This document shows positions 4,762 to 64,000 of a stretch of 64,000 nucleotides of DNA, piece by piece (position 1 is the stretch's first letter; each line of letters begins with the position of its first letter). The translations under genes were made by a program, and so were the position numbers. This DNA comes from Chlorobiaceae bacterium. GTDB lineage: Bacteria > Bacteroidota > Chlorobiia > Chlorobiales > Chlorobiaceae. The notes beneath the pieces are model-generated. The model was not told where the DNA came from and did not search any database. It worked only from the letters and a program-made list of their open reading frames with translations. The stretch is from the NCBI GenBank assembly GCA_013334565.1, contig JAAXXI010000004.1, positions 24,796 to 88,795 of the forward strand. The letters are read 5' to 3'.

Positions 4762-6936
4762 ATGCTGTTGACGAGCCTTTTTGCCATAACCCTGCCGTTG
4801 AAGAATCCGGTCCTGCAGTTTTCACTGATACTGTTCATCATTCTTTTTGTCCCCCTTCTTTTCAACAGGCTGAAAATTCCGAGCCTTGTCAGCCTTATCA
4901 TTGCCGGGGCCATTGTCGGACCGAACGGACTCAACCTCATGCTTCGCGACAGCAGTATCCTGCTGTTCGGTACGGTCGGATTGCTCTATATCATGTTTCT
5001 TGCCGGTCTCGAAATAGACGTCGAGGATTTCCGGAAGAACAGCGTAAAAAGCACGCTGTTCGGTCTCTATACCTTTTTTATCTCCATCACGCTCGGTATC
5101 GCCGTCGGTATCTGCCTGCTGCATTTTCCCCTGCTTTCTTCCATCCTTATCGGCAGCATTTTCGCTTCCCATACCCTTATTCTCTATCCTGTCGTCAGCC
5201 AGCTGGGCATCGCGAAAGACAAGGCGGTGAATATTGCTATCGGCGGCACACTGATTACCGATACGCTCGCGCTTCTCGTGCTTGCGATTGTAGCTGAAAT
5301 ATCGAACGGCGAGATAGGGGGAATGTTCTGGATGAGGCTGGTTATCGGCCTCATGATTTTCAGCGGGATTGTCCTTTTCCTGTTTCCGGTGATCGCACGC
5401 TGGTTTTTCAAGCGTTTCGACGACAATGTGCTGCAATACCTGTTTGTGCTGGCACTTGTTTTTTTCAGCGGTTTTCTTGCCGAAGCTGCGGGGGTCGAAG
5501 CGATTATCGGGGCTTTTCTCGGTGGGCTCAGCCTCAATCGGCTGATCCCGGTCACCTCACCCCTTATGAACAGGATCAGGTTTGTCGGCAATGCCATTTT
5601 CATTCCTTTTTTCCTGATCGGTGTCGGCATGCTTATCGATATCCGGGCTGTTTTCAAGGATTATGAGACCATCCGGGTCGCCCTCGTCATTACGGTTGCC
5701 GCTTCGGTTGCCAAATATTTGTCAGCGTGGATAACCCAGAAGCTGTTCGGGTTCTCCCTGGACCAGCGGCGGCTGATCTTCGGTCTCATCAGTGCGCATG
5801 CGGCTGTTGCCCTCGCCACGGTCCTGATCGGCTACAATATCGTGACCGGGACCAATCCGGACGGTACTCCCCAGAGGCTTCTGAACGAGCAGGTGCTGAA
5901 CGGGACGATCCTGTTCATTCTCCTGACCTGCATCTTCGCGACCTTTACCGGGCAGAAAGGCGCACACAACATCGCTCTTGCCGAATCGGCGGAAGAGGTT
6001 GCGGAAAACCGCAGCGGGATCGAAGAGGAAAGGATCCTCATGCCGCTTGGCGATGCGGACACTGTCGACGAACTGGTGAACCTCAGCGTAACGGTAAAAT
6101 CGCAGAAAAGCCGGAATGGCATCTATGCCGTGCATGTAGCCGATTACGACCTGCCGGACGAGATGGTGAAAAAAACAGGGGGCACTATCCTCGAAAAAGC
6201 CCAAGTGGCAGCTTCTTCAACCGACAACAGCCTGACGCCGATCCTGCGTTACGACAGTGACGTGGTCAACGGTATTGCCGGCGTTGTCAGGGAACGGAAA
6301 ATCACGGTCCTCATCATGGGACTGCACCATAAAAACAGCGTTACGGAAAGTTTTCTCGGCCGTTCATCGGAGGATATCCTGGAGCGGTGCAATGTTACAA
6401 CGATGATTTACAAAGCTGTTCAGCCCCTTTCCACGATCAGGCGTACGATCCTGGTCATTCCGCAGGAAGGGGAGAACGAGCCGGGGTTTTCCCTGTGGAT
6501 GCAGAAAGTCATCAACATAGTCCGCAACACCGGAAGCAGGCTTATCGTCCATGCTTCCAGACAGACCGTCGCGTGCATCAGAAAATCCGACTGCTGGAAG
6601 TTTTTCATTGCCGATTACAGGGTGTTCAGGGATTGGGACGAACTGCCTGCTCTGTCGAAGGAAATCAGAAGCGACGACAACATCATCATCGTCATGAGCC
6701 GGAAGAACCGGCTGTCTTACCATAACAAGATGTCGAAGATTCCTTCGTATCTGAACAGGTATTTTACCGGCAACAGCTTTATCCTTGTCTATCCTGTCCA
6801 GTCAGGAATGCCTGAAGAAACATCCGGAATGTCATCCGATGAGCCGAAGAGGACGGTATTCATCCACTTGCGGGAAATAGGCAGGCAGCTGGGAAATATC
6901 TATCGGCACAAGGAGAAGGAGTCTGTCGGGGAATAG
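4762..6936 (+). CDS. CPA2-type cation:proton antiporter with C-terminal universal-stress-like region
   Basis: 724 aa; about 12 TM N-terminal half with Kef/NapA-like motifs (LASLAGLEIDVEDFRK-type, FFSGFLAEAAGVEAIIGAFLGGL), soluble C-terminal half. Start codon may be internal. Confidence 0.8.
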   Translation: MLLTSLFAITLPLKNPVLQFSLILFIILFVPLLFNRLKIPSLVSLIIAGAIVGPNGLNLMLRDSSILLFGTVGLLYIMFLAGLEIDVEDFRKNSVKSTLFGLYTFFISITLGIAVGICLLHFPLLSSILIGSIFASHTLILYPVVSQLGIAKDKAVNIAIGGTLITDTLALLVLAIVAEISNGEIGGMFWMRLVIGLMIFSGIVLFLFPVIARWFFKRFDDNVLQYLFVLALVFFSGFLAEAAGVEAIIGAFLGGLSLNRLIPVTSPLMNRIRFVGNAIFIPFFLIGVGMLIDIRAVFKDYETIRVALVITVAASVAKYLSAWITQKLFGFSLDQRRLIFGLISAHAAVALATVLIGYNIVTGTNPDGTPQRLLNEQVLNGTILFILLTCIFATFTGQKGAHNIALAESAEEVAENRSGIEEERILMPLGDADTVDELVNLSVTVKSQKSRNGIYAVHVADYDLPDEMVKKTGGTILEKAQVAASSTDNSLTPILRYDSDVVNGIAGVVRERKITVLIMGLHHKNSVTESFLGRSSEDILERCNVTTMIYKAVQPLSTIRRTILVIPQEGENEPGFSLWMQKVINIVRNTGSRLIVHASRQTVACIRKSDCWKFFIADYRVFRDWDELPALSKEIRSDDNIIIVMSRKNRLSYHNKMSKIPSYLNRYFTGNSFILVYPVQSGMPEETSGMSSDEPKRTVFIHLREIGRQLGNIYRHKEKESVGE

Positions 6937-6954
6937 GGGAGGGATCCTGCACCT

Positions 6955-7443
6955 TCAGTTTTTATACTTGGACGGTTCGCCGGAGGAATGTCCGCTGCAT
7001 TTTCCGAAAAGCTGAAGGGTGAAGCTCTCGGGTTCGAACCCATTTTTACTGCAAAGATTTTCGAGTATATCCGAAAGTGACCGGTCGGATATTTCCAGCA
7101 CCTTTCCGCAGTCGTTGCAAACCATGTGCAGGTGATTTTCAACACCGTAGGCTTTTTCGTAATGGGTGTGCTTGTGGCCGAGATCGGTCCTCGATACCAG
7201 ATGGAATTTCAGGAGCAGGTCGAGGGTGTGGTAGACGGTCGCTCGCGAAATGCCGACACCCCGGTTTTTCAGTTTAACGAACAGTTCATCGGCATCGAGG
7301 TGGGTATCGGAGCGGTAGATTTCCTGCAAGACGGCAATCCGTTCCGATGTGCATCGGAGACCATGCTCTTTCATACCGGTTCTGAACTGGGTCTCAGCCA
7401 ACCTGGTTATCTTTGCGGGTTTTTCTTTTTTTCCCATGTTCAT
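6955..7443 (-). CDS. Fur-family transcriptional regulator
   Basis: 162 aa; LRCTSERIAVLQEI, GVGISRATVYHTLDLL, HLHMVCNDCGKVLEI; convergent with the antiporter gene. Confidence 0.85.
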   Translation of the reverse strand: MNMGKKEKPAKITRLAETQFRTGMKEHGLRCTSERIAVLQEIYRSDTHLDADELFVKLKNRGVGISRATVYHTLDLLLKFHLVSRTDLGHKHTHYEKAYGVENHLHMVCNDCGKVLEISDRSLSDILENLCSKNGFEPESFTLQLFGKCSGHSSGEPSKYKN

Positions 7444-7646
7444 CGGTCTCTACGGTTTGCTTTCTCAGGATCGGTTGCTGAGGAAACCATCGCAGGAACA
7501 TCTCCGATCTTATCCTGAACGGAGCATTCGCTCCATGTGATGATTACGGTATTTCTGAATGAAGTTACAAATTCACCATAACCCCTGCAATGCCGGTCCG
7601 GATTCAGCATTGCAGGAATAATTGCGGAGAATTGATGGATGGCGGT

Positions 7647-10600
7647 TTATTTTTTTCCGGTAAGCGATGTGATCATGTCGAGGAGCTCATTTTTCTTGAC
7701 AGGTTTTGTAAGGTACCCGCTGAATCCGGCATAAAAAGCTTTTTCCCTGTCATCGGGTGATGCGAATGCTGTCTGAGCGATGACGGGAAGATCGGGACGG
7801 ATCTCCCTGATCAGCTGGTGGGCGTCATAACCATTCATGACGGGCATCTTCAGGTCCATAAGGACGATGTCCGTTTCAGGGTGCTGCCGGACCAGTTCAA
7901 CTGCTTCCCTGCCGTTTGTTGCGATATGGAGGGTGAACTGTTCACTTTTCAGGGCTTTTTTCAGCAGCAGGGCGCTTACGTCGTCGTCTTCGGCAATGAC
8001 GATGTTCAGTACGGACATATCCGGATTTTCGGGGATTACCGGTTCAGCAGGCACGGATTTATGGACCGGTGTCCATGGAAGGGTGAAAAAGAACCTGCTT
8101 CCCCCGCTCAGGCCGGGTTCCACATGGATGATCCCGCCCAGCAGCTCGATGTAGGCTTTCGTGATGCTCAGACCGAGTCCGGCCCCATCATGAAGCCTTG
8201 AAAGCGAGGTGTCCACCTGGCTGAACCGTTCGAAAATTTTCTCTTTCATTTCCGGTGGAACACCGACGCCGGTGTCGGTGACATAAAATTCAAGGATCGC
8301 ATCCTTTTTTTCATAGCCGAAGTCGATATGCCCTTCGCTGGTGAATTTAAGGGCATTCTGAAGCAGGTTGGAAAGGATCATCCGAAGTTTGCCGCCATCG
8401 GTCACCATGTTGCATTCGTTCTCGGAAAGGCCGGGCTTCCAATTCAGTTCCAGTCCCTTGTTTTGCGCTTCGTCCCTGTATTCGCCGTAGATTTCTCTGA
8501 GAATGCTGTTGAGGGGTGTTTCGGAAAGTTCGATGATCGATTCCCTTGCATCGATCCGCGAAATTTCCATGATGTCGGTTATAAGCTTCATCATCCGTTC
8601 GCCGCTCTGCTGGATAAGCTCGATGTACTCCTGCTGTTCTTCACCGGACAACTGCGGTTCCCTGAGCAGTTCCGAGAAACCGAGGATACCGTTCATAGGC
8701 GTCCGGATTTCATGGCTGATGTTGTTCAGGAAGGCTGACTTCAGCCGGTCACTCTCTTCAGCCTTTTCTTTTGCGGATATCAGTTCATTCAGGAGCTTTT
8801 TGTTATCCGTGATATCTTCCTTGACAGCCACGAAATTGGTTATTTCGCCCTTCTCGTTCCTGATGGGGGCGATGGAGGCATCTTCCCAGAAAAGCTCGCC
8901 GTTTTTCTTCCGGTTATGGAATTCGCCGTGCCATACCCTGCCGGAAAGAATGGTGTTCCAGAGATGTTCGTATACTTCCTTCGGCATGAGGCCGGACTGG
9001 AGCACGCGGGGGTTCTGTCCCTTCACTTCTTCGAGCGTGTATCCGGTATGTTTCGTGAACGAGGGGTTCACGTACTCGATATTGCCGTCAATATCGGTGA
9101 TGACCACGATTGCAGGGCTCTGTTCTATGGCGATACTGAGCTTCTTCAGCTCTTTTTCCACCTGGTTGCGATCTGTAATGTCATGCAGGATCAGGTATAC
9201 GAGCCACTGGTCGTTGGTCTGGATTTTCTGCCCGTACATCTCGATATCGACGATCGCTCCGTCGGCTTTCCGATGCTTGACGACGAAAGTCCGTGTGCTG
9301 TTAGATTTCCATCCTTCGAGGCGTTTCCTGGAATTTTCCGGCGTATCGGTATTTATTTCTATGACGCTCATCCGGACCAGCTGCTCCCTGCTCCAACCGT
9401 AAAACCTTGCAGCGGCATTGTTCGCATCGATGATATTTCCTGTTTCCGGATCGAGGATAAGCATTGCGGCAGAATGCTGCTCGAAGAAATTCCTGAACCG
9501 TTCTTCGCTTTCTCTCAACGACTGTTCAGCTTTTTTACGCTGCGATACATCCCTTCCGGTCACGACCGAACCGGTAATCGAACCGTTTTTATCATATATG
9601 GGGGCGAAATTGTAACTGCCGGTCCATTGTTCTCCGGTATCCTTGCGCCGCAATCCGTATTCGGCCGCTATTCCATGTTCCCCGCGCAACGCCCGCGCCA
9701 CCGCCCACTGATCGAGGGATGCAAGGGAGCCGTCGGCCATGAACACATCGAGGATTTCCGGGTAGTCTGAAAGTTTTTTCAGGCACTCCCTTTTGTTCCT
9801 GAACCTGTGGAACGAAGCGAAAGCCTGATTGAACTCGATGAAGCGGCCTTCCTTGTCGGAAATGAAAACGGCATCGCTCATGCTTTCAAGTGCAGCTTCG
9901 AGCATGGTTTTGTTTTCGATGAGCTCTCTTTCGGCTTTTTTCCTGTCGGTCACATCGTTGACGATGCAGTAGTATACTTTTTTGTCTGCGATCGTGGAGA
10001 GGTTGCAGAATACCTCGACGTCCTTGAAGGAGCCGTCGGCTTTTTTATGAACGGCGGAAAACTGTTTCCTGCTGAGCCGGCTTGCCGCTTCCTTATTTTT
10101 ATCAAGGGTTTCCGGTGAATTTGCGGAGAGCTGTCCGATCTTCATCTGGCAAATATCTGCGGATGGCCAGCCGTAAAAAGAGGTGGCGGCCCTGTTTGCA
10201 TCGATTATCCTGTCGGTTTCCGCATCGATGATGAGCATGGCGGAGGAGTGCTCTTCAAAGAGGTTCCTGAAGCGCTTTTCGTTTTCCTTCAGCTTGTTTT
10301 CCGCTTCTTTCAGGCAGGTGATATCGATGACGACCCCGATATACTGAATAACCTTGTCTTTGCTATTCCTGATGGGGATGCCTTGTGTCATCAGCCAGTG
10401 GTCGGAACCGTCTGGATGGCGTACTCGCCACTGCAACTGGAAAGGATGGCCTTTTTTAACAGCCGCGGCCACTCTGTTTTCGGTTATTTCCCGGTCCTCT
10501 TCGATAATGGCCTGTTTCCAGCTTTCATAGGACGGCGTACAGGAATATTTCTCGATGCCGTAAAGATCCCAAATCTCATCGCTCCATTTGTTTTGGTTGC

Positions 10601-51236: not shown

Positions 51237-52412
51237 TCAGATGTTTTCAAGGCATTCAAGCAGTGTGCCGTAGCTGATCTTTTCCTGTTCAAGCCTTACC
51301 TGTTCCCCCCAGTGGTTGTTGCAAAGCTGTTCGTACAGTTCCTGCTCGTCGGTGCTCAGCCGGTTGAGGCTTGCTGTTACGGGATAAGGTTCTGTTTCCC
51401 AGAAATGGCGGTGCTGCAGAAATGTTTGCCGGTCCATCAGAAATGAAGATGCTTCGGGAAAAAGCTCCCTGAACTGGTTGAGGATCGCGAAACCGTGGGT
51501 GTCGATGTCGCCCCAGTAATACATCCTGCGATTCTTCAGCCAGTCGATAGCGGTGAGGTTGCTGAACCCGTAACCTGCACCGAAGATGACCATGGCTCCC
51601 TGAATCGGGGGCAAGGCAAGGAAGTTGATTTCGTTTTCGGTGATGAAGATTTTTTCTGTCCTGAGGTCGAGCCGGGAAAAGTCTTCCCTGGTAATAGTGA
51701 TATCCTGGTCGGTACCGTGCTTCAGGATCGAAAGAGCCGGGTCGAGTATACGGAATCGCACTCTCAGAGGTTTGTCGCGGAAGCCGTAGCGTCTGCAGAA
51801 GTTCCCGGTTCCGCTGGATTGTTTATCGATCGATTCCTGTGGCAGGGCGAGGTCGAGTAGTTCGGACAGCACGCCCCGATGGTTTTCGATGAACTTGCTG
51901 TGTACTCCTTGCAGGTCGATCTGCCGCAGATAGATGCCGGGGCGGGGATGTTCGCGAAGCCACGCGACTATCTGCAGCATGAGCGGCCATGCTTCTGCCA
52001 GCTCGAGTGCGCGCACAGGACGTTTCGAAAGCCATGGAAGAAGAGATGGCTCCAGACGTCGGGTGATGGCGGCCATGCGTGAGAACTCCGCGGCGGCTTT
52101 ATGCTTGCCTATGAATCCGAGAGCATCATCCATGGAATCGATCCATATTTCGGACGGGATGTCGTTGACCCCGATCACCTGGTGTTTGACGGTGCGCCAG
52201 ACGATGCGGTAGGCTCCGGCTGCTTCTTTCAATTGCAAGATCCATGCACGCACATCAGCGAAACATTCACTCAACTGATTTGAATTTGGTCCTTTGAACG
52301 TCAGGCGAAGAGGAAACAGCTCTCTTTCCCCGATGATGGCGCAGTGAAGCATGCCCCGGCTCCAGAGCTTCTGCACCTGGGCTTTGAGGTCGGCAGGAGT
52401 CGTCCAGTTCAT
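51237..52412 (-). CDS. jetD: Wadjet protein JetD (DUF3322/DUF2220, Toprim-like nuclease subunit)
   Basis: 391 aa; N-terminal DUF3322-like, C-terminal MVIFGAGYGFSNL...YYWGDIDTHGFAILNQFRELFP (DxD Toprim-type motif). Confidence 0.9.
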   Translation of the reverse strand: MNWTTPADLKAQVQKLWSRGMLHCAIIGERELFPLRLTFKGPNSNQLSECFADVRAWILQLKEAAGAYRIVWRTVKHQVIGVNDIPSEIWIDSMDDALGFIGKHKAAAEFSRMAAITRRLEPSLLPWLSKRPVRALELAEAWPLMLQIVAWLREHPRPGIYLRQIDLQGVHSKFIENHRGVLSELLDLALPQESIDKQSSGTGNFCRRYGFRDKPLRVRFRILDPALSILKHGTDQDITITREDFSRLDLRTEKIFITENEINFLALPPIQGAMVIFGAGYGFSNLTAIDWLKNRRMYYWGDIDTHGFAILNQFRELFPEASSFLMDRQTFLQHRHFWETEPYPVTASLNRLSTDEQELYEQLCNNHWGEQVRLEQEKISYGTLLECLENI

Positions 52413-55400
52413 CGCATCATGTTCCGTTTTTCTGTACGGTATTCTTCGATACTGAGGTTGCGCAGCACCGATGCCCGTCCGTCCTGGTTGTGCACGAATC
52501 CAACGCTTGATACGAAGGGTTCGATGATGTGGATTTTCTGCAACGGGGTGACGATGAGCAGTTGCAGGTTGAGCCGGGCGAAGAGCTGCAGGCCGTAATG
52601 GGCCGACTCGTCGGAACCGCGGCCGAAAGCCTCGTCGATAACCACGAAGCGGAAGGATTTCGATTGCACCTCATCCTGTTTGAGGCCGAACTGGTAGGCG
52701 AGGCTGGCTGCGAGTACCGTATAGGCAAGTTTCTCTTTCTGCCCTCCCGACTTGCCACCCGAATCGGCATAGTGCTCGTGTTCGGTATGGTCCTCGTGCC
52801 ACCGTTCGCTGGCAGCGAAGACGAACCAGTTGCGAACGTCGGTCACCTTGGCAGTCCAGCGCCGGTCGAGGTCTGTTAAATCATCGCGTCCGCGGAACCG
52901 GTCGATGATTCTGCGCACCTGAATGAACTTAGCTTCGGAATACTGGGCGTTGTCCGAGCCGGTGAGGGCACCTTCGGTGCAGCTCCTGAGCTCGGCCTGG
53001 AAATCGCGGATGTCGGCGTCGGGGCTTGGCTGCGCTTCGAGGCTGATGTATCGGCCGGGGTTGTAGTCGATCTGTGTGAGCGAATTGTTGATCCGGGAAA
53101 TACGCTCCCTGATGGTCTCCCGCTCGCGGGCGAGCTGCGACTGAAAGTTGGCCACCTCACGAATGGTGTTTTCGTTGAGCAGTTCCTTGAAGCGATCTTC
53201 GAAGCGCGGCAGGTCATCCGCGCGTAGCTGCAGGAGCATCGAACGGTACTCTCCTGCAGAAGCGATGCTGACATCGACCTCGCGGGTTTCAAGCTTCCAT
53301 TTTTCGTTGTACTCTGTCATCGACCTGATGATCCTTTCCTTCATGCGTGAGAGCTTTTTGTCTTCGGCGTCAATTTTTCCCTGCAGCCAGTCGCGCATAT
53401 CGCGTTCACGGCTGTCGCACGATTCGACGGTAAGAGCACGATTCTCCCGCATCTCCGCCTGAAGGGCATCGAGCCTCCCGAAGCGCACGATCGTCTCCGA
53501 CATGGCTTCGGTCATGGATTGCCGTGCCTGCTCCTCAAGCTCTTTCGCGCTGCTGATTTTCTGCTCGGTTTTCGACCGCCTGTCCTTGCGTTCGTCGAGT
53601 AACCGTTCAGTTTCCCTGAGTCCGTTCTCCGTCTCTGCGAGCTGAGCGGCAAGGGTCCGCAGCATGTCCGAGGTGCTCTCGAGTTCGCGTTTTTCGGTTT
53701 CAAGCCGGGCGATGGTGACAGCAACCGGCTTCCAGTCGAGGTCGAGGAAGTCGGAATACTCGTCGAGCCGCGAGAGGATGCTGAGGCGTTCTTTCAGGTG
53801 CGTCTGCTCCTTGTGCAGTTCATCCATACGCTTTTTCAGTTCACCGAGAGACTCGCTTTTCCTGCGGGCGTTCTCTTCGAGCACGGCAATCTTTGCAACG
53901 TTGTTCCAGCCGAGCACATAACGGCTGCGGTCGTCGAGGCGGTGGCGGTCGTCTTTCTCATGGCGTTCGCCGGGCATTTTGACCTGTCCGGACATCGTGA
54001 CCGCTTTTTTCTCCCGCCTAAACTCCTCCTGACTGCTGCAACAGACCAGGTCGAAGCGATGGGCTATTTCTCTTTCGAGCCAGTCGAAATAAGGGGAGTC
54101 CGACCTGATCATGAGCTTATACGGCAGGGTGGACGGGTTTTCGGGCAGGTTTTCGCGGCGGGCTGGCAGACGTACCCGGAAATAGATGATGCGTCCCCTG
54201 AGATGGGTGCGATCAACCCACTCGGCCACCAGTGCATAGCGGGTATCGGGTACAAGCAGCGAGAGAGCGAAATTGCGAAGCAATCGTTCGACAGCTCCTT
54301 CCCACACTGCTTCTTCTTTGCGTACCTGAAGCAGTTCACCTGCGAAAGGTATTTCAGTTTCGTCGAGGTTCAGTGCCCGGCAGAGGTCACGACGCATGGC
54401 GATCTGCCGGTCATCGATATTGTTTTTACGTGCCTTCAGGCTCTCGATTTCTGCCATGAGATCCAGGTTCTCCTGCTGCTCGCGGGCAAGCGAGACGCCC
54501 GTTTCGTTGAGATCGTTCTGGACGCTTGCACCCTGTTCTTCGGTGCTCTCGCGCATTGCTTCATGTCCGGTGCGCTGGCTGAGGAACTCTTCGGCGGTTG
54601 CTGCAGGAGCTTTGCCGAGATGACGTAAAAGCTCTTCGTAACGGGAGGATTTCTGCTTTCGGCGTTCGAGCTCTTCCTGTTTCAACCGGATTTCCGATGC
54701 GATGCTCTCGATCCGGTCGCCTCCGTTCTCGGCAATGGTCCGACGCAGGTTGCGTTCATCTTCCTGTCCTTCGCGCCTCTTTTTTTCGAGATGTTCGACT
54801 GCGCTCTGATGGCGTGTCAACTCCTCTTTGAGAGAGTTGAGACGGTGCTGGAGAAGGCCGAGCTTGAGCGAAGCGAACCAGGGGCGGAGGGCATCCCTGC
54901 ATCCACGGAGTTCTTCGGTGGAGGCCGAAAGTTGCAGGTATTGGTCACAATCCTCCACAAGGGGTTCAAGCATGCCGATCTGCTGCTTTGCCTTGAGGAC
55001 CGCTTCGTGCGCGCGGTTGAGGTCTTCGAAATGGCGGATCAGGGCGGTGATGCGGGGCTCGACGTCGAAAGGTTCGAGCATGTGGCTGCGTACGAAGTCG
55101 GTGAGGTTTCCAACCGACTTGAGCGAAACGGTCTGATGGAACAGCTCCAGCGCCTGTTCGTTTTCGATGCCGAAGCGGCGGCGGAACCAGGCACCGTAAG
55201 GCGGGAAGCTGTCGAAGACCTCGATGCTGCCGGCACGCAGGCGATTGCGCAGGGCGGAGATCTCAGTGCCGAATCCCGAGAAGTCCGAGGCAATGGAGAG
55301 GTCACGTTCGGAAGCCGCAAAAAGGCGCGCAGGCTGTCCGGCGGGATCTTTAAACGAGAAGATCTGGGCGAGGGTGACCGTTTTGCCGTAACCTTCATTG

Positions 55401-55777
55401 TGAAATACCCCGAGCACCACCGAGTACGTATTGATCTCACGCAGTGCGACCGGTCTGGCTCCGCCTCCAAGCGACTCTTGGCGCTCCGATTTGTAGAAAC
55501 CGAGCACGTAGGATCGGAGCGTGCGCTCGCGGGTGTCTGCTCCGGCGGCCTTGTTGTAGGCGATGCGCTGACTCGGCACAAGCAGTGTGGTGACAGCATC
55601 AACCAGTGTCGATTTGCCCGAACCGATGTCGCCTGTGAGCAGGCCGTTGCGGCCATCGAGACGAAGCGTCCAGACCCGGCCGTCGAAGGTGCCCCAGTTG
55701 AACACTTCAAGGCGCTGCAGGCGGAATCCGGCGAGGCGGTCGTCTGCGATGAATCCGAATTCGAGGGTTTCAGCCAT
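52409..55777 (-). CDS. jetC: Wadjet protein JetC (SMC/MukB-like ATPase)
   Basis: From ATG at 55777: MAETLEFGFIADDRLAGFRLQRLEVFNWGTFDGRVWTLRLDGRNGLLTGDIGSGKSTLVDAVTTLL (Walker A); long coiled coil; C-terminal SGGKSGGQKEKLAYTVLAASLAYQFG and FRFVVIDEAFGRGSDESAHYGLQLF. Confidence 0.93.
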   Translation of the reverse strand: MAETLEFGFIADDRLAGFRLQRLEVFNWGTFDGRVWTLRLDGRNGLLTGDIGSGKSTLVDAVTTLLVPSQRIAYNKAAGADTRERTLRSYVLGFYKSERQESLGGGARPVALREINTYSVVLGVFHNEGYGKTVTLAQIFSFKDPAGQPARLFAASERDLSIASDFSGFGTEISALRNRLRAGSIEVFDSFPPYGAWFRRRFGIENEQALELFHQTVSLKSVGNLTDFVRSHMLEPFDVEPRITALIRHFEDLNRAHEAVLKAKQQIGMLEPLVEDCDQYLQLSASTEELRGCRDALRPWFASLKLGLLQHRLNSLKEELTRHQSAVEHLEKKRREGQEDERNLRRTIAENGGDRIESIASEIRLKQEELERRKQKSSRYEELLRHLGKAPAATAEEFLSQRTGHEAMRESTEEQGASVQNDLNETGVSLAREQQENLDLMAEIESLKARKNNIDDRQIAMRRDLCRALNLDETEIPFAGELLQVRKEEAVWEGAVERLLRNFALSLLVPDTRYALVAEWVDRTHLRGRIIYFRVRLPARRENLPENPSTLPYKLMIRSDSPYFDWLEREIAHRFDLVCCSSQEEFRREKKAVTMSGQVKMPGERHEKDDRHRLDDRSRYVLGWNNVAKIAVLEENARRKSESLGELKKRMDELHKEQTHLKERLSILSRLDEYSDFLDLDWKPVAVTIARLETEKRELESTSDMLRTLAAQLAETENGLRETERLLDERKDRRSKTEQKISSAKELEEQARQSMTEAMSETIVRFGRLDALQAEMRENRALTVESCDSRERDMRDWLQGKIDAEDKKLSRMKERIIRSMTEYNEKWKLETREVDVSIASAGEYRSMLLQLRADDLPRFEDRFKELLNENTIREVANFQSQLARERETIRERISRINNSLTQIDYNPGRYISLEAQPSPDADIRDFQAELRSCTEGALTGSDNAQYSEAKFIQVRRIIDRFRGRDDLTDLDRRWTAKVTDVRNWFVFAASERWHEDHTEHEHYADSGGKSGGQKEKLAYTVLAASLAYQFGLKQDEVQSKSFRFVVIDEAFGRGSDESAHYGLQLFARLNLQLLIVTPLQKIHIIEPFVSSVGFVHNQDGRASVLRNLSIEEYRTEKRNMMR

Positions 55778-56402
55778 CCAGCTCCTCCGCTGATTTTCCG
55801 GCCAGACGGCGGTAATCGTCGAGGCGGCGGTCGAAATCGGCCAGCCACTGGGCATCGATAAATGCCTTGATGATCCGTCGCACCTCGACCATCTGCTTTT
55901 CGCCGCGAAGGCGGCGGATGAAGCCCAGTTCGGCAATCTTGTTGATGGTGGCATCGACCTGGTCGATGAGCTTCACTTCGTTGCAGCCTGCCGGGAGGAA
56001 GATGCGGATCAGCTCAGCCACTTCGTCACGCGAAAGGATAAGGCGCGTCTCTCCGCCTCCGGCATCGGATTCGGCAAGTTTTTTGCGCAACAGTGCGAGC
56101 ATAAGGCTGACCGGATAGGAGAGTTGTCGCCTTGCTACCAGTCGTGGTATGGTGTCGCCAGCCTCCTCCTCGACAGAGGAACGGGAGCGAAGAAAGGCAT
56201 ACCCTTCGGATTCGTCAAGCATAAGGTCGAGTCCGAGCACGGCGACATAGTCCCGAACGCCGGATTGCAGGTTCAGGAGGGTATTCCAGAGCGCAGGGCT
56301 TTCCTCCTGGTAAATCACCCCTTTCAGTAGAGCTATCACCACCTGTGAAAGCTCACGGGGTGCAGTTTCCGGTCGAGGGGTATGCGTATCAGTCGGGTTC
56401 AT
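55770..56402 (-). CDS. jetB: Wadjet protein JetB (DUF4194)
   Basis: 210 aa; VIALLKGVIYQEESPALWNTLLNLQSGVRDYVAVLGLDLMLDESEGYAFLRSR, KIAELGFIRRL; 8-nt overlap with jetC. Confidence 0.9.
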   Translation of the reverse strand: MNPTDTHTPRPETAPRELSQVVIALLKGVIYQEESPALWNTLLNLQSGVRDYVAVLGLDLMLDESEGYAFLRSRSSVEEEAGDTIPRLVARRQLSYPVSLMLALLRKKLAESDAGGGETRLILSRDEVAELIRIFLPAGCNEVKLIDQVDATINKIAELGFIRRLRGEKQMVEVRRIIKAFIDAQWLADFDRRLDDYRRLAGKSAEELDG

Positions 56403-56520
56403 CGAAGAATATCGAAAAGTGACCGTATCTTGGCAAGTTCAGTATCAATTTATCATTAATGAAACTGTCGTGTATCATGGAATGTTTTTTCAGCCGGGAA
56501 ATCCTGAACTGAACGGAGGA

Positions 56521-56650
56521 CGGGTCTCCTTTTTCTTCCCCTCAGTCCCCATTTCTTTTTTCAGTGCTGAGTGCTAAGTGCTCAGGACTAAGCTTTTTTT
56601 TCTTCCCCATTCCCCATTCCCCACACCCCACTCTCTTACCCATTCCTTAC
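56521..56650. repeat. Short degenerate tandem-repeat tract (GTGCTnAGT and TTCCCCA units) between jetA and jetB
   Basis: cagtgctgagtgctaagtgctcaggactaagc...cttccccattccccattccccacacccc. Confidence 0.7.
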
Positions 56651-58084
56651 AAAAATAATGCGCGGCAGCGTCGCCTGTCGTTTCACGCCGTTTTCTCCTT
56701 CCCATACGATCCGTTCTTCACTCTCTTCATCCACTGCCGTAAACGGCCACTCTCCTGCAATCTGGAGGTAGGTGACGAGTTCGGCCAGGCCGTGGCGCAG
56801 GGGATAGCGGGCAATCACCTCGCCGAGGCTGATCTGGTTCCGCTCCTGCAGCGTCTTGCGAATCTGCCGGGACAGTTCGGCGCGATCGACGATCACCTGG
56901 GCATAGAGCGTTGCGGTGTCGATATCTGCATCTCCCTGGTCAAGCGCGATGCTTTCGATCAACGGCTTGAACGGTGGCCGGAAGAGCGGTCTTTCGAGCG
57001 GCAGTTCGATTTCGGCGTAATTATCCGAAAGCGGCATGAAGCTGCCGCCGGGAATCGATTCTCGCAAGGCGAGGGCTTTGCTTTCGATGTCGTGCAGGAT
57101 ATCCATGATGCGCCTGTTTTCGAGCCACGCCTTGTCGTCAAGGAACCTGCGCAACTGTTCGGACAGACGGGCTACCGTGCGCTGCGTGTGCTCTCCGGCT
57201 TCAAGCCAGTCGTAATGCACCCGCTTCAGACGGGGTTCAGGACCCATTTCGGCAACCGGAGGCAGACTCAGAACATTTTCGAGCAGCATGGTCAGCTCCT
57301 CCTGTCGGGACTGAGACATCAGGAAGTCCCAGAATGCGCGGAAGCTTCTGCCCTGATCGGAATCTGCAATCGTGTCGCGCTTGCCCATGATCTCCTCCAG
57401 GAGAGTTCCTTTGCTCCCTTCCCAGAGAGCGATGTGCTCTCGTACCTGCCGGTCGAGCATGCGGAAGTTGTGCTCCACCTCGCGGAAATCAGCAAGGAGT
57501 TCACGAGCCAGTTGCAGGAACTGCTGGAATCGGTCCTTGAGAGATGTATCGTCGAGCAGGATGATTTCACCTTCATGGATGCGTTCGATTTCAGCGTCGA
57601 TTTCATCGCGCCTCCGCTGCAGTTCGGCAATCCGGATTTCCGGGTCGGCCTGACTTCCTGTATTCATCTGGCGCAGCAGCTCGAAAAGGGTAAGCAGTCT
57701 CGATTCAGTTCCTACGAATGCCCTTTCGGAGAGGCTCTCCAGCCATGCTATCGCTTTTTCGGTGGAAGGGGTGAGATCGTAGTGGGGCTCATCATCGCCG
57801 ACGGGATAGAATTTGCGCAGCCACCCCTTGTCGTTTTCCGCCCAGTCGTTCAGGTAGCTCTGAGCAGAGCCGGGGAACGCGTTTTCACCAAGTTGCCGGC
57901 GCAGGGCGAACAGTTCATCCTCCAGCTTCTCGACAAGGTCAGCCTGCGAGAGGGTACGAATATTGGGAACGATGAACACCCGATGCAGAAACGACGCCAC
58001 CAGGGGAGCATGCTGGGCGCGCAACAGTCGCCATGCCGGGTGGTTCTGGCGGAGCAGGTCGAGGGTGGTGTAATCGAAAGCCAC
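56636..58084 (-). CDS. jetA: Wadjet protein JetA (DUF3375)
   Basis: 482 aa; MAFDYTTLDLLRQNHPAWRLLRAQHAPLVASFLHRVFI...; helical kleisin-like protein; position in the jetABCD order. Confidence 0.92.
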   Translation of the reverse strand: MAFDYTTLDLLRQNHPAWRLLRAQHAPLVASFLHRVFIVPNIRTLSQADLVEKLEDELFALRRQLGENAFPGSAQSYLNDWAENDKGWLRKFYPVGDDEPHYDLTPSTEKAIAWLESLSERAFVGTESRLLTLFELLRQMNTGSQADPEIRIAELQRRRDEIDAEIERIHEGEIILLDDTSLKDRFQQFLQLARELLADFREVEHNFRMLDRQVREHIALWEGSKGTLLEEIMGKRDTIADSDQGRSFRAFWDFLMSQSRQEELTMLLENVLSLPPVAEMGPEPRLKRVHYDWLEAGEHTQRTVARLSEQLRRFLDDKAWLENRRIMDILHDIESKALALRESIPGGSFMPLSDNYAEIELPLERPLFRPPFKPLIESIALDQGDADIDTATLYAQVIVDRAELSRQIRKTLQERNQISLGEVIARYPLRHGLAELVTYLQIAGEWPFTAVDEESEERIVWEGENGVKRQATLPRIIFVRNG

Positions 58085-58092
58085 TGGTGTCG

Positions 58093-61000
58093 TCAGGTAA
58101 AATTCAGGGGTGTTAACCCTTTGAGTTCCGGCAGATCGGTTGCAATCCAGTTGCGCGGGACCCAGTCAGGTTCTCCTGTCGGCATTTCCGCTTTGTCTAT
58201 ATATCGCAATTGATCTGTCAATTTTCCCTGTCCATCCCAGCGATTGTCGACTCGAGACCATGTCAGCCAGGATGATCTTGTGGCTGACATGCATAGTATT
58301 TCAATTCCGGAACGCGCATTCCAGAGGTGTGCAATGCTGTCATCGCCAGCGGTGAGAATGGAGTTTCCGTCCGGTGAGAATGCGCAGGTGAGAATCGGTT
58401 CGAATTGTCCATCGAAACGCTGGATTTCTTTACCTGTTTTAACATCCCATAATTGAGCGATACCGGTATCGCCAGCAGTGAGAATGGAGTTTCCGTCCGG
58501 TGAGAATGTGCAAGTGGAAATCCATTTTGATATGCATTTGAACCGCTGAATTTCTTTACCGGAACGAGCATCCCAGAGAAGTGCAATGCTGTCGTTGCCA
58601 GCGATGAGAATTGAGTTGCCGTCAGGCGAGAAAGCGCAAGCAAGAATCGGTTTGAAATGCCCATTAAACCACTGGATTTCTTTTGCGGACTGAATGTTCC
58701 AGAGTCGAGCTATAGTGCTGTTGCCAGCAGTGAGAATGGATTTACCGTCAGGCGAAAATATACAGGCTCGAATCGGGGCAGAATGCCCTTCGAAGCTACG
58801 AATTTCTTCGCCGGATTGAATGTCCCATAGGCGAGCTATAGTGTCTTCGCCAGCGGTGATGATAGATTTACCGTCAGGCGAAAACGTACAGGCTCGAATC
58901 GGGGCAGAATGCCCTTCGAAGCTACGAATTTCTTTGCCTGATCTGGCGTCCCAGAGTCGAGCGAAGCTGTCATCGCCAGCGGTGATGATAGATTTACCGT
59001 CAGGTGAAAAAGCGCAGGTATAGATTCCGAAAGGATGACCTAAAAAGCTTAAAATTTTTTTTCGAGAAGAAATATCCCAGATATCAGCGCGAACACCATC
59101 GCCAGCAGTGATGATGATGTTGCTGTCAGGAGAGAATGCACAGGCATAAATTCTATCTCCACTGATATTAACATTTGCAATTACAGGGTTTTCAGGAAAA
59201 CGTCCGGCATCTGATGGTAGACCCTTTGCATTTGGCCATGTGGCACCAATGAGGTTTACAGAAGAAAGATTTGTGTTGCTGAAGTCAGCTTCTGCAAGCC
59301 TGGCAAGTCGAAATCTTGACCCGGATAAATCCGTGTTATTTGCATTTAAATTGCGCAGGTCCGAGTCATCGAAAACAGCGTTTCTGCAGTCAGCTTTGCT
59401 GATGTCGATACCGCGAGCCTGTATTCTGAGGGCACTGGTATATCGCAGACTCGATTCCGCGAGGTTTGCACTGTCAAGCAATGCGTCATCCAGTAGGGAA
59501 CCGTCAAAACAGGCTTTATGAAGATCGGCGGCAAAAAGGGAGGAACCTTTCAGGTTGGCATGACTGAAATTGATTTCGTCGGCAAAGAGACCCGACAGGC
59601 GTGTCCCGGCCAGTTGAGCCCCTTTCATGTTTGCGCCTGGCGGGATCAGTTGTTTCTGCGCCATCCGACGTTGATCAGGTGCGAAAATATCGTAATTTTT
59701 ATGTTTTCCCCATTCTGCCTTGACCCTGAATGATGCCGTATGAAGCGCAATCAACAAGGCATTTTCTGAGGATATCTCTTTATAGGAGTTTTCAAGGATC
59801 GTTCGAATAGCAAGAGTCAGCTTGTCAGATGTATCTTTTTCCGATTCGACCAGGTCGAGAAGGAAGTCGGTGGCCTCCTGATTGACCCATCCATACGCGA
59901 GCGCTTCGGAAAAACGGTCATCTTTCAATGCGCGAAGAAGGGCTCGAGCGAAAAAGAATTCAAGAAAACTCTTATGCGAGAACCGGTAATAGCCGTCGGA
60001 GCTTCGGACGAGAAAGGCCGCGGTGCGCATTTCAAGATCGACCCGCTCGCTGTCTATGTTGCGATTGAGCAACTGCTCCTTGCGAAGCAAAGCGGAGAGG
60101 TCGGCATAGTGAATCTGGTTGCGAGGTCGGCTCCAGAGTTCGCATGACATGCGTTCGAGCAATTCGCGCATATGTTCCGGGTTGACCTCGCCCTGGATCA
60201 GTCGTACCGTGTTCAGCCATTTGTTGGTATACGTCAGGTAGAGGGATGCCGTGGTTATCTTTTCGCCCTGTTTCATGAGGTCCGGCAGTGAGGCGACGAT
60301 CATGTCGAGCAGCTGGGGAGTAGATGCGATCTCGCGAAGGCCGTAGGTCTCCTCGATAAACCGGAGTGCCCTGTCGCCCTCGATGGAGCCGAGACGTTTC
60401 TGCAGGTACCTGGAGATCTGTTCTTTTGTGAAGACCGGCAGGGTGTCGATGGTTGCGTCAAATGCGCGGGCGGCCTTTCCGAGCGGCGATTCGGGTTCGA
60501 ACAGTTCGTCATTGCCCTGAACGGCGCGGCGGGCGCTTTTCGTATCCCTGAAAAAGTGGCTTCGTGAGGTGATGAGTATACGGTTGCCGCGAGCTGTAAG
60601 TCCTGCGTTTGACGTCGGGCGGGCAAGTTGGCGGAACTGCTCTTCGACGCTCCGCCCAGGCCGGGCGACGCCCATTTCATCGAAACTGTCGAGCAGGAGC
60701 ACCACACGGCCGGCTTCGAGCAGGTGCAATACGATTTCCGGATTGAGCACGGTGTGGAGTTCGGCTTCAAGGTGTTCCCGTATCAGGCTTTCGAGCGAAA
60801 TGGCGTTCGGGAAATTTCGCAGGTTGATCGTGATTGGTGCCGGGCTTTCGGGATCGGTTTCATATTTGCGGGCCAGTTCGTAAGCGAGACGCTCGATCAT
60901 CGTGCTTTTGCCGGTACCGTAATCGCCAAGCACCAGCCAGAGACGGCTGCCGTTCCCTGCCACCCAGTCGAGAGCGTGGGGCAGCATCGAAGCCAGTTTG

Positions 61001-62388
61001 TCATCCGGTTTGTTTTCAAGTGCAAGAAACTGATCGACATAACTTGCGGCTATAGGGCTTGCCTCATAACGCTGTCGGATTCGGGCGAGGTAGGGCGAGA
61101 AGTCGAAGAGGTTTCGTTCAAGCTCATCGTAGGTGAGTGCCTGGAGTCCCTGTTCCCTTGCGTAGCCGCGAGCATCGGGGCTGAAATCTTTTGCGGCAAC
61201 GATGATACCTTTAGCCTGCATCTGTCTTGCCGACGAACCTTCGAGCCAGGTTTTGAATACCTGAACCGTTTTTTTTGGAATGACGGCCTGATGATCCTTG
61301 CATTCAACGAAATAGACCTCTTCACGGCCAAAATCTGCCCGTTTGCGGGCGACAAGGTCTATGCGGTTGCTGTCGACCGACTGTTCCCGTTCTACGGAGT
61401 AGCCAAGCAGACGCAGCAGGTGCGCCACTTTATCCTCAAAACTCTTCCCCTGTTCGAGCTTGCTTCTGGGTGAACGGGAAATGATATCGGGACGCGCCTC
61501 TTCACTTCGGCGTGCCGATTCGGTTTCGGCGATGACCTGCTGGCGTACAGTTTCGATCTTATGTTCAAGTTCCTTGTATGCAGATGTTACGATATGATCA
61601 GGCATTGTTGCCGCATACAACTCTTCGGTATATTGCAGGCTTTCGTCGAATGGAATCGTTACAACTTCTCTTTGTTCTATACCGAAAGCTTCTTTCCATA
61701 TCTCTTTGCCGACAGCCCTTAATTTGTTTACATCGGTTATTGGCGAAGCAACGAGTATTCGTGTAAGATTTGGCAAGTGACCGCGTAATTTGATTTTGCC
61801 TTCGCTTGCCGGTTCGAGGGCCTTCCATACATGGGCGAGCCCCTTGGTATTCTGGCGTCCGTAGTTTCCCACAAGTACTGTGACGTGGGGCAGCAGAGCG
61901 GCAAGCAGTCCTCCGATATCCGTGATGCCGGTTCGGGAGTCGAGGATCACCGTTTCGAATCCGGCCTCGCCGAATGCTTCGAGCGCAAGATGGAACAAAG
62001 TAAGGCCGCTGTCGAGGTCCCGTGCGAGGAAATCGTCCCATTGAATTTCCTGGTACAGTCCGGCAAAGTCCTTATTTTCGCCATACGCAGGCAGGATGAA
62101 AAGGTTTTCCGAGGTTGGAATCTGGCAGATACGTTTGGTCAGCTTCTTGTAATCAGCACCCTTCGCGCTTTTCTTTGAATCCTGCCATTCGATCAGCCAC
62201 TCGAAAAAACCCTTTTCAATTATCGATGGATAGAGGCCGGGTATGTTATGCATGCCCGGTGCTTCGATATCGAGGTCCCAGAGCAGCGTTTTGCCTCTTC
62301 TGGCACACAGCACACCTACATTGGCGGCGAGCAGGCTCCGCCCGACCCCGCCTTTGTAGCTGTAAAAGGTGATGGTAAAGGGTGTCAT
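58093..62388 (-). CDS. Multidomain STAND-type protein: ParA/MinD-like ATPase + Mrr-like nuclease + NACHT NTPase + pentapeptide repeats + seven WD40 repeats
   Basis: 1431 aa; N-terminus TFYSYKGGVGRSLLAANVG; LLGYSVEREQSVDSNRIDLVARKRADFGREEVYFVECKDHQ (D...ExK); LVLGDYGTGKSTMIERLAYEL and VVLLLDSFDEMG; ANLKGSSLFAADLHKACFDGSLLDDALLDSANL; seven CAFSPDG...AGDDS..LWD blades. Confidence 0.9.
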   Translation of the reverse strand: MTPFTITFYSYKGGVGRSLLAANVGVLCARRGKTLLWDLDIEAPGMHNIPGLYPSIIEKGFFEWLIEWQDSKKSAKGADYKKLTKRICQIPTSENLFILPAYGENKDFAGLYQEIQWDDFLARDLDSGLTLFHLALEAFGEAGFETVILDSRTGITDIGGLLAALLPHVTVLVGNYGRQNTKGLAHVWKALEPASEGKIKLRGHLPNLTRILVASPITDVNKLRAVGKEIWKEAFGIEQREVVTIPFDESLQYTEELYAATMPDHIVTSAYKELEHKIETVRQQVIAETESARRSEEARPDIISRSPRSKLEQGKSFEDKVAHLLRLLGYSVEREQSVDSNRIDLVARKRADFGREEVYFVECKDHQAVIPKKTVQVFKTWLEGSSARQMQAKGIIVAAKDFSPDARGYAREQGLQALTYDELERNLFDFSPYLARIRQRYEASPIAASYVDQFLALENKPDDKLASMLPHALDWVAGNGSRLWLVLGDYGTGKSTMIERLAYELARKYETDPESPAPITINLRNFPNAISLESLIREHLEAELHTVLNPEIVLHLLEAGRVVLLLDSFDEMGVARPGRSVEEQFRQLARPTSNAGLTARGNRILITSRSHFFRDTKSARRAVQGNDELFEPESPLGKAARAFDATIDTLPVFTKEQISRYLQKRLGSIEGDRALRFIEETYGLREIASTPQLLDMIVASLPDLMKQGEKITTASLYLTYTNKWLNTVRLIQGEVNPEHMRELLERMSCELWSRPRNQIHYADLSALLRKEQLLNRNIDSERVDLEMRTAAFLVRSSDGYYRFSHKSFLEFFFARALLRALKDDRFSEALAYGWVNQEATDFLLDLVESEKDTSDKLTLAIRTILENSYKEISSENALLIALHTASFRVKAEWGKHKNYDIFAPDQRRMAQKQLIPPGANMKGAQLAGTRLSGLFADEINFSHANLKGSSLFAADLHKACFDGSLLDDALLDSANLAESSLRYTSALRIQARGIDISKADCRNAVFDDSDLRNLNANNTDLSGSRFRLARLAEADFSNTNLSSVNLIGATWPNAKGLPSDAGRFPENPVIANVNISGDRIYACAFSPDSNIIITAGDGVRADIWDISSRKKILSFLGHPFGIYTCAFSPDGKSIITAGDDSFARLWDARSGKEIRSFEGHSAPIRACTFSPDGKSIITAGEDTIARLWDIQSGEEIRSFEGHSAPIRACIFSPDGKSILTAGNSTIARLWNIQSAKEIQWFNGHFKPILACAFSPDGNSILIAGNDSIALLWDARSGKEIQRFKCISKWISTCTFSPDGNSILTAGDTGIAQLWDVKTGKEIQRFDGQFEPILTCAFSPDGNSILTAGDDSIAHLWNARSGIEILCMSATRSSWLTWSRVDNRWDGQGKLTDQLRYIDKAEMPTGEPDWVPRNWIATDLPELKGLTPLNFT
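58230..59170 (-). repeat. WD40 coding repeat, 126-nt (42-aa) period, seven blades
   Basis: Repeats 2-7 follow IRACTFSPDGKSIITAGEDTIARLWDIQSGEEIRSFEGHSAP; 'atcgccagc' at 58342 and 58468 are 126 nt apart; 48-nt identical blocks at 58761-58808 and 58887-58934. Confidence 0.92.
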
Positions 62389-63002
62389 GATGCTATTTTC
62401 AGGAAACTTGCTGCGCGATGGTTTTCGGTGTCGCGCTTTTGATCGATTTTTTTAGCGTATTGCAACCCGGTTTCAGTCAGTTTCAGGAGATTGTCTCGTC
62501 CGTGCTTTCTTTTGGTAATGAGGCCGTTGGCTTCGAGATTGCCGATGAGTTGCGTTACACGACCGGTGGTTACACCGAGGCGATCCGCAAGATCTGACTG
62601 AGGTCGCTCATGGTTGCCGGTTATGTGCAAGTATACAAGGATTTCTCTGACATGACGGCGTGCGAACTGAGCATCCGGATCTGCATGTACAAGATTGAGC
62701 CGTCTTGCTTCAAGCATATCGTTTGCCTCCTCCCACCGGTATCGATATTCCTCTGGAAGACTTTTTGCCGTGTTGGCTCGATGCAACGTGTAATGGATCA
62801 GGCGTTGTAGTTCCGATATGCCTTCCCGATCGTTCGGATTCGCGATTGCTCTTGCCGACCAGACTGAAATGAGCCGGTTGACGACGTTCAGCTCGGTTTT
62901 GCCCCATTCTTTAAGATTACGGATAGCACTCAGCAATTCGATCGGCGTTGCTTTGTCGACAAGCATGGAAGGATCACTGATATTCAGATTCAGTGTGTTC
63001 AT
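62385..63002 (-). CDS. Winged-helix (MarR-like) DNA-binding protein
   Basis: 205 aa; FARRHVREILVYLHITGNHERPQSDLADRLGVTTGRVTQLIGNLEANGLITKRKHGRDNLLKLTETG; 4-nt overlap with the STAND gene. Confidence 0.85.
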   Translation of the reverse strand: MNTLNLNISDPSMLVDKATPIELLSAIRNLKEWGKTELNVVNRLISVWSARAIANPNDREGISELQRLIHYTLHRANTAKSLPEEYRYRWEEANDMLEARRLNLVHADPDAQFARRHVREILVYLHITGNHERPQSDLADRLGVTTGRVTQLIGNLEANGLITKRKHGRDNLLKLTETGLQYAKKIDQKRDTENHRAASFLKIAS

Positions 63003-63077: not shown

Positions 63078-63842
63078 TTATCTGACGACTTTAAGCTTGA
63101 TATCAGGGTGTTGGATGGTGATTATGGACAATTCGGTTTCAGCTTTTTCGTTTTCATCATGATACACGAATCCCGGTTCGTATTCCTCTGCATCGGGCAT
63201 CTGCTGATTGGCGACAGCGATAATGGCTCCTTTCGTATCGTGTAAATATTTTGCCTTTTCATTGTGTGGACTGAGTTTGTTGCTCATGCTTGGTACCAGA
63301 AGCCAGTCGAGAGGTAAAGATTGCAGGACAGTGGCGGAATTTCCCGCGAACAGATCCCGGCAGATAGCCATGCCGATCAGTCCGAGAGACGATGTGAGAC
63401 AGGTTATCGGTGTCGGTGAGGTTTCGATCAACTCCCCGTATTTGTTATAGGTGACTCCTTCCCGTTTATCTGAACTGAATAGAGTTGTCCCGTCGTGTCC
63501 GGAGAGTGCTTCTGCATGGTTGCGCCATTTGTTTTCGAATTGTTCGTGAAAGCTGCCTGAAACGACTATCGGAACGGAGAGTTCATGGTCTTCGCCGTCA
63601 CTGAGCGCGAGGTCCATCATCCGTTCGCTGATTTTTGTGCGTATGGCCGGAGTGATGGTAAGCTCTGGCATGATGAGAAGATGGACGCCGGAAGTTTGTG
63701 CATTTCTGATGTGTTCCAGAGCCGAGGCAAGTCGTTGTGTTTCATCGCTGATGCCGCGACAAATGAAAAACCGGTTGCCAGTGTATTTGATGTCGAGTTC
63801 TGCCTTGTCTTCGAAATGGACGATGCCGATCTTTATAAGAGC
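63078..63842 (-). CDS. Nitrilase-fold (carbon-nitrogen hydrolase) domain; start uncertain, coding similarity extends upstream of the first ATG at 63671
   Basis: ...ALIKIGIVHFEDKAELDIKYTGNRFFICRGISDETQRLASALEHIRNAQTSGVHLLIMPELTIT... with LIMPEL (Glu), ENKWRNHAEAL (Lys?) and GLIGMAICRDLF (Cys) resembling the nitrilase triad. Open back to TAA at 63843-63845. Confidence 0.65.
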   Translation of the reverse strand, partial: ALIKIGIVHFEDKAELDIKYTGNRFFICRGISDETQRLASALEHIRNAQTSGVHLLIMPELTITPAIRTKISERMMDLALSDGEDHELSVPIVVSGSFHEQFENKWRNHAEALSGHDGTTLFSSDKREGVTYNKYGELIETSPTPITCLTSSLGLIGMAICRDLFAGNSATVLQSLPLDWLLVPSMSNKLSPHNEKAKYLHDTKGAIIAVANQQMPDAEEYEPGFVYHDENEKAETELSIITIQHPDIKLKVVR

Positions 63843-64000
63843 TTATTCGTAATTAAGTAAAATGAGTGCTATATTTCCTGACTTGTGCCACTTTTTGAAA
63901 ATCTGCGGATACAAAATATTAAGACATTATTTTTATTGCGTTTAGCATTTTCTGATTCTCGAATATTCGCACTAATGGTATCTTTCAACCATGCGTGGAG

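Follow-up and report, generated by a model that had tools for sequence, protein, structure and literature searches.

What is the use of a protein that carries an ATPase-like domain, a nuclease, a NACHT switch, pentapeptide repeats and a WD40 propeller in one chain of 1431 residues, and with which partners does it work? The question is raised by a stretch of 64,000 nucleotides from a Chlorobiaceae bacterium (contig JAAXXI010000004.1 of assembly GCA_013334565.1; hereafter the window), in which such a protein, here called the receptor, is encoded on the minus strand. We consider it probable, if well short of settled, that the receptor is an anti-phage receptor of the signal transduction ATPases with numerous domains (STAND) kind, resembling NLR proteins, with a nuclease effector, exchangeable sensors and a nitrilase-like partner; the defence role is what we infer. 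We also put forward, tentatively, the possibility that it belongs to an undescribed immune system in which alternative fast-evolving sensors (a tandem-repeat WD40 propeller in some strains, a retroelement-mutated lectin in others), borne on one conserved core, act through a nuclease and a small-molecule enzyme.

The original prediction had described a single uninterrupted frame holding all five modules, and this description holds. The translation runs through 1431 codons with no internal stop, and the modules, placed by Pfam, NCBIfam and motif matches, lie where they had been put (Table 1), with curated cut-offs passed for the KGGVGR, Mrr_cat, NACHT and WD40 models and with matches to pentapeptide models as well. 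The motifs on which the prediction was based are likewise at their sites, with KGGVGRS and DLDIEAPG at the N-terminus, IDLVARKRADFGREEVYFVECKDHQ at about 61.36 kb, GDYGTGKST at about 60.93 kb and LLLDSFDE at about 60.70 kb. The receptor core of approximately 850 amino acids (residues 1-850) is found as a single open frame with 70-83% identity in approximately 20 Chlorobiaceae genomes from its own genus and family; a number of these copies are partial or cut by contig ends. The carriers named in the genome scan comprise Chlorobiaceae (Chlorobium and Chlorobaculum) and two Rhodocyclaceae metagenome-assembled genomes, with 54% identity for the longer of the two Rhodocyclaceae matches. Relative to the two closest relatives, the ratio of non-synonymous to synonymous substitution rates (dN/dS) is approximately 0.05-0.12 in each of the KGGVGR, Mrr, NACHT and helical parts, in a comparison where synonymous sites are close to saturation, and these values point to strong purifying selection on every domain of the core. 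Because the core recurs in independent genomes and dN/dS is low, the fusion is an old and selected protein, not an artefact. Mis-assembly, which had been named as a way in which the prediction might fail, is ruled out, as independent genomes hold the same fusion as one open frame at the identities given above. Carriage as phage or plasmid cargo is also rejected, since phage records gave no receptor match, no relative was confirmed on viral contigs, and none of the plasmid records searched holds most of the core.

The nuclease and NACHT modules give the fusion its likely character. The Mrr_cat model (PF04471) scores 59.6-60.8 bits against a cut-off of 21, and the residues D344, E362 and K364 are kept across the family, Rhodocyclaceae included; by cut-off and catalytic motif together, the Mrr-type PD-(D/E)xK domain is predicted to be a nuclease. 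The fact that structure prediction recovers the PD-(D/E)xK fold, the check that had been suggested for it, agrees with this assignment: the domain is modelled with a predicted local distance difference test score (pLDDT) of mostly 76-90, and Foldseek matches it to 1y88, MspJI and AspBHI. The NACHT model (PF05729) scores 39.9 bits against a cut-off of 26.7, with both Walker A and Walker B present, and a Foldseek search with the core model returns, for the NACHT part, NLRP2, NOD2, NLRC4 and Avs4 bound to a phage portal (8dgf). The idea of an unusual fusion that pairs a nuclease effector with a NACHT switch is thus supported.

Only the end of the receptor past the NACHT module is exchanged, with the core conserved. 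Beyond residue 850-870 or so, the C-terminus consists of pentapeptide repeats and WD40 in the window and eight relatives, of a short tail in three, and of a DUF4062-NACHT-FGE (C-type lectin) module, which brings a second NACHT, in four; this last module is a separate downstream gene in several genomes. The pentapeptide models match residues 918-1050 below their own family-specific cut-offs, and residues 851-1060 are 49-55% identical to the eight relatives. The WD40 model (PF00400) scores 174.7 bits against a cut-off of 27 and accounts for exactly seven blades. When WD40 blades are compared, most of the variation falls at a small number of positions (such as 4, 5, 7, 17, 23 and 33 of 42), the rest of the scaffold being constant; in one relative the blades number 14 and are nearly identical. 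In four relatives the receptor is truncated near residue 660. The truncation lies close to residue 662 at these loci (L038, L039, L040 and L041). A common tail (AEHSLTAVKEGAQL) in three of them suggests a single ancestral event, and a separate DUF4062-type gene follows the truncated receptor in L039-L041.

In three relatives the FGE/lectin tail is the target of a diversity-generating retroelement (DGR). All 17 differences between template and receptor repeats in Chlorobium sp. L227-S-6D (G003) fall at template adenines (P = 7e-14), as do all 11 in G023 (P = 6e-8) and all 12 in G057 (P = 3e-8), and adenine-only differences are the diagnostic DGR pattern. The template lies within a few hundred bp of the reverse transcriptase gene in each of the three; in G003 it is found at C4:536169, with the receptor 3' end 75 kb away. 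A search for a template repeat matching the lectin tail of another relative, G012, found none. The window protein itself is not a DGR target, since it ends in WD40 and no match to the reverse transcriptase model RVT_1 was found in its 87%-complete assembly. Two observations concern other DGR targets. In G003, two further targets of 970 and 975 amino acids (L080:812-3724 and 5576-8503) flank the same template and reverse transcriptase, and the cassette serves at least three targets. The window genome encodes a second NACHT-FGE protein (L081:6720-9959, G000:C53), which ends in a DGR-type variable region (LRGGSWHYEPVILRCRVRYLNFPDNGINVNGFRVVRP) with no reverse transcriptase found in the assembly.

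It is also important to consider the genes that accompany the receptor. The conserved operon order is a nitrilase-fold enzyme, a winged helix-turn-helix (wHTH) protein and then the receptor, whose start codon overlaps the stop of the wHTH gene (ATGA, 62385-62388), and both partners precede the receptor at all 17 related loci where the upstream sequence is long enough, some of these loci having partial matches. In the relatives the first partner has approximately 420-440 residues and the wHTH protein approximately 205-220. The first partner narrowly misses the Pfam CN_hydrolase cut-off (19.7 against 23.2 bits for the best Chlorobi member tested) and is a divergent branch of the nitrilase superfamily: its AlphaFold model (pLDDT 69, predicted template modelling score (pTM) 0.71) is matched by Foldseek to mouse Nit2 (nitrilase-2) with E = 1.7e-11, a profile search returns NAD synthetase and N-carbamoylputrescine amidohydrolase, and the Glu-Lys-Cys residues E224, K290 and C325 are invariant in 16 sequences. 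In the window genome the 5' part of this gene (residues 1-167) lies on another contig of the same assembly, C20. The broken ends carry near-identical inverted sequences, seen by eye on C14 (63852-64000) and on C20:1-130 (L128), and for this reason the gene appears to be split by an insertion sequence at about codon 163. It is broken in several other genomes too, with intact copies in relatives. In one genome, G075 (L149), the nitrilase-like and wHTH genes are kept and no receptor is seen downstream.

The same three genes occur in the same order on the Rhodocyclaceae contigs, cut by contig ends. In a more divergent trio on a Rhizobium plasmid, wHTH and nitrilase-like genes accompany a KGGxGR protein that has a TPR-like tail, and Pfam detects no Mrr or NACHT domain; on a second Rhizobium plasmid the KGGxGR gene of the trio harbours an IS21 element. 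We count only the Rhizobium trio as related because the nitrilase-like relatives on Azospirillum, Bradyrhizobium, Sphingobium and Methylobacterium plasmids have no KGGxGR motif nearby. Around the trio on the first plasmid (L109:5398-16867) are FRG-domain, SIR2 and nucleoside deoxyribosyltransferase genes, surroundings that look like a defence island.

The N-terminal domain had been proposed to be a DNA-positioning ATPase, and as worded this proposal is not supported. The whole protein scores 111.2 bits against the AAA_KGGVGR family (NF047398, cut-off 90), the motif SYKGGVGRS is present, and the domain also matches a MinD profile (4v03, E = 3e-4) and the PADLOC candidate PDC-M28B (E = 4e-14). 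In this variant family an arginine stands in place of the P-loop lysine of GK(S/T), and MinD/ParA-like domains in conflict systems are predicted to be inactive according to Kaur et al. 2020 (PMC7159879). Given both the substitution and this prediction, a role in docking or dimerisation is more likely for the domain than one as a motor that positions DNA.

Beyond what was observed directly (the domain make-up, the nuclease motif, the conserved operon, the exchangeable C-terminus and its DGR targeting in three relatives), we propose a mechanism in which the C-terminal module, whether the pentapeptide and WD40 end of the window or the DGR-rewritten lectin fold or other ends elsewhere, would recognise a phage or other foreign product. 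Ligand binding would release the NACHT ATPase and lead to oligomerisation, and the oligomer would bring the Mrr nuclease domains together for DNA cutting, as in Avs proteins. The KGGVGR domain would most likely serve as a nucleotide-binding dimerisation module or as a docking module for the wHTH partner, which may also repress or anchor the system, and the nitrilase-fold protein probably provides a second enzymatic activity, directed at an amide or nitrile. In the end the invading DNA would be destroyed, or the infected cell would die.

Table 1. Features of the receptor locus, in window coordinates
Feature	Position	Strand	Basis
Type I Wadjet operon JetA-B-C-D, complete	51237..58084	-	Profile matches; all four genes present
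Receptor open reading frame, 1431 aa: KGGVGR - Mrr - NACHT - helical - pentapeptide - WD40	58093..62388	-	Open reading frame and domain matches; homologues
Seven WD40 blades of 42 aa, one predicted propeller, residues 1075-1368, 126-bp tandem repeat	58285..59166	-	WD40 PF00400
Pentapeptide repeats, residues 918-1050	59239..59637	-	Pentapeptide models; relatives
Helical region after NACHT, residues 641-850, end of conserved core	59839..60468	-	Homologue and model comparison
NACHT NTPase, residues ~470-640, Walker A GDYGTGKST, Walker B LLLLDSFDE	60469..60981	-	PF05729; Foldseek
Mrr-type PD-(D/E)xK nuclease domain (predicted), residues 313-430 (match 313-425), D344...E362-C-K364	61099..61452	-	PF04471; conserved motif; fold 1y88/MspJI/AspBHI
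KGGVGR-variant MinD/ParA-like domain, residues 1-290 (profile match 4-191)	61519..62388	-	NF047398; MinD 4v03; PADLOC PDC-M28B
wHTH (MarR-like) protein, 205 aa, ATGA overlap with receptor	62385..63002	-	PF12802, 34.3 bits
Nitrilase-fold partner gene, 3' part (model residues 163-417)	63078..63854	-	Sequence match; fold
Apparent insertion sequence end in nitrilase-like gene; contig end	63852..64000	.	By-eye sequence assignment

For the defence reading we count the curated domains, the nuclease motif, the Avs4 and NLR folds, the exchange of sensors, the DGR targeting of the lectin end in three relatives, the variation among WD40 blades, the conserved operon partners, the purifying selection and the adjoining Wadjet operon. 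Several points weigh against it. Its support comes from comparison of sequences and structures. The KGGVGR half is modelled unreliably from a shallow alignment, at a pLDDT of only about 20-50, and the arrangement of the domains relative to one another is uncertain (pTM 0.41). With its nitrilase-like gene broken, the window genome may hold a partly decayed system, and most of the related loci in Chlorobium sit at one chromosomal site, between menH and menD, a lower mobility than is usual for defence islands. Finally, NA-iREase1, a family named for inactive NACHT-associated nucleases, also scores above its cut-off in the nuclease region (32.6 against 27 bits).

This last point is where an alternative begins that we regard as unlikely: the nuclease would be a degenerate or DNA-sensing restriction endonuclease fold, and the effector would be the separate nitrilase-fold enzyme, switched on by the receptor with a logic like that of DRT1, in which a nitrilase serves as an antiphage effector domain (PMC13275509). 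It would fit the invariant Glu-Lys-Cys residues and the supported nitrilase fold, the persistence of the nitrilase and wHTH genes in one genome with no receptor seen adjacent, and the Rhizobium trio lacking Mrr and NACHT by Pfam. The catalytic residues of the nuclease are nevertheless present, conserved as far as Rhodocyclaceae, and Mrr_cat far outscores NA-iREase1 in the same region (60.8 against 32.6 bits); moreover, it is the nitrilase-like gene that is interrupted in the window and broken in several other genomes, whereas the receptor frame is open in the window.

Less probable still is that the receptor is a non-defence regulator with a NACHT and a variable sensor, for example in developmental signalling or in recognition within the multicellular consortia that are the lifestyle of some green sulfur bacteria. 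The fixed chromosomal position in many Chlorobium would suit such a role, as would the proposal (PMC7517822) that DGRs tune regulatory pathways in cyanobacteria. It accords poorly with a conserved nuclease active site, a patchy distribution (the nitrilase marker gene is found in 18 of 66 genomes of the genus), frequent gene disruption, a Wadjet neighbour and a related trio on Rhizobium plasmids. That the receptor is an accessory or enhancer of the adjoining Wadjet (plasmid/DNA defence) operon, which lies directly downstream in the same direction with the receptor stop 8 nt before JetA, is highly improbable and largely refuted by synteny, since JetA had no match in the 20 related loci searched and the conserved partners are the nitrilase-like and wHTH genes; among the compared loci the operon appears to be a neighbour peculiar to the window genome and not a conserved part of the system.

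With an anti-phage receptor as the preferred reading, the closest functional likeness is to the Avs (AVAST)/bNACHT proteins, whose single chain likewise joins a nuclease effector and a STAND/NACHT ATPase to a C-terminal sensor that is variable or made of repeats. The window receptor differs in the extra KGGVGR domain before the nuclease, in the regularly linked wHTH and nitrilase-like partner genes of its family, and in a sensor that is WD40/pentapeptide or FGE lectin, the sensor of Avs being of the TPR type. As membership of Avs turns on a TPR-type C-terminal sensor for phage terminase or portal, and the window receptor has none, it would work like Avs and is not filed as Avs. Mrr-NACHT proteins on Rhizobium, Azospirillum and Paraburkholderia plasmids (e.g., WP_082366437) share the order of endonuclease and NACHT at 24-30% identity over residues ~306-863 but begin at the nuclease; the three examined lack a KGGVGR domain, and adjacent to them a nitrilase or wHTH partner is not annotated. 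The KGGVGR-motif AAA ATPases (NF047398; PDC-M28B) include the window N-terminal domain above the family cut-off and have, in many members, a small gene, often HTH, directly upstream. Among the other members examined, however, the fusion partners are TPR-like, TIR or unassigned regions, and Mrr-NACHT-sensor is found in none; the third genes of the Enterobacter, Burkholderia and Calothrix KGGVGR operons encode no nitrilase, being P-loop NTPase-like or unassigned.

DGR-diversified NACHT/STAND systems are described by Kaur et al. 2020 (PMC7159879) and Dore et al. 2024 (PMC10907252), where NACHT proteins have a DGR-rewritten FGE/C-type-lectin end and Chlorobi are noted as carriers of divergent DGR reverse transcriptases. 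The present family differs in that its core also carries non-DGR WD40 sensors, in that its target can lie far from the reverse transcriptase cassette (as in G003), and in its KGGVGR-Mrr half and nitrilase/wHTH partners, which were not met in the passages searched. DRT1, a reverse transcriptase-nitrilase antiphage system, likewise sets a nitrilase-fold domain in an immune-type system, but here a gene of its own, next to that of a STAND receptor, encodes the nitrilase, and no reverse transcriptase is fused to it; the authors of that work note the lack of precedent for an immune nitrilase (PMC13275509). Three kinds of protein are already known: Mrr-NACHT, KGGVGR and DGR-diversified NACHT-lectin proteins. 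In the literature searched, with supplements and closed papers outside it, we found neither KGGVGR joined to Mrr-NACHT, nor the nitrilase/wHTH partnership, nor a core with either WD40 or DGR sensors.

One gene family joins NLR-like switches, sensor diversification by a retroelement and diversification by WD40 repeats on the same effector core, and extends the immune-type settings in which nitrilase-fold enzymes are met. According to Dore et al. 2024 (PMC10907252), DGR-based phage recognition awaits experimental test. With a nearly constant core and the sensor as its only changing part, the family lends itself to asking directly whether DGR-made diversity gives phage recognition. If the proposal is true, these bacteria would have an adaptive-like receptor repertoire coupled to a nuclease as well as to a small-molecule enzyme.

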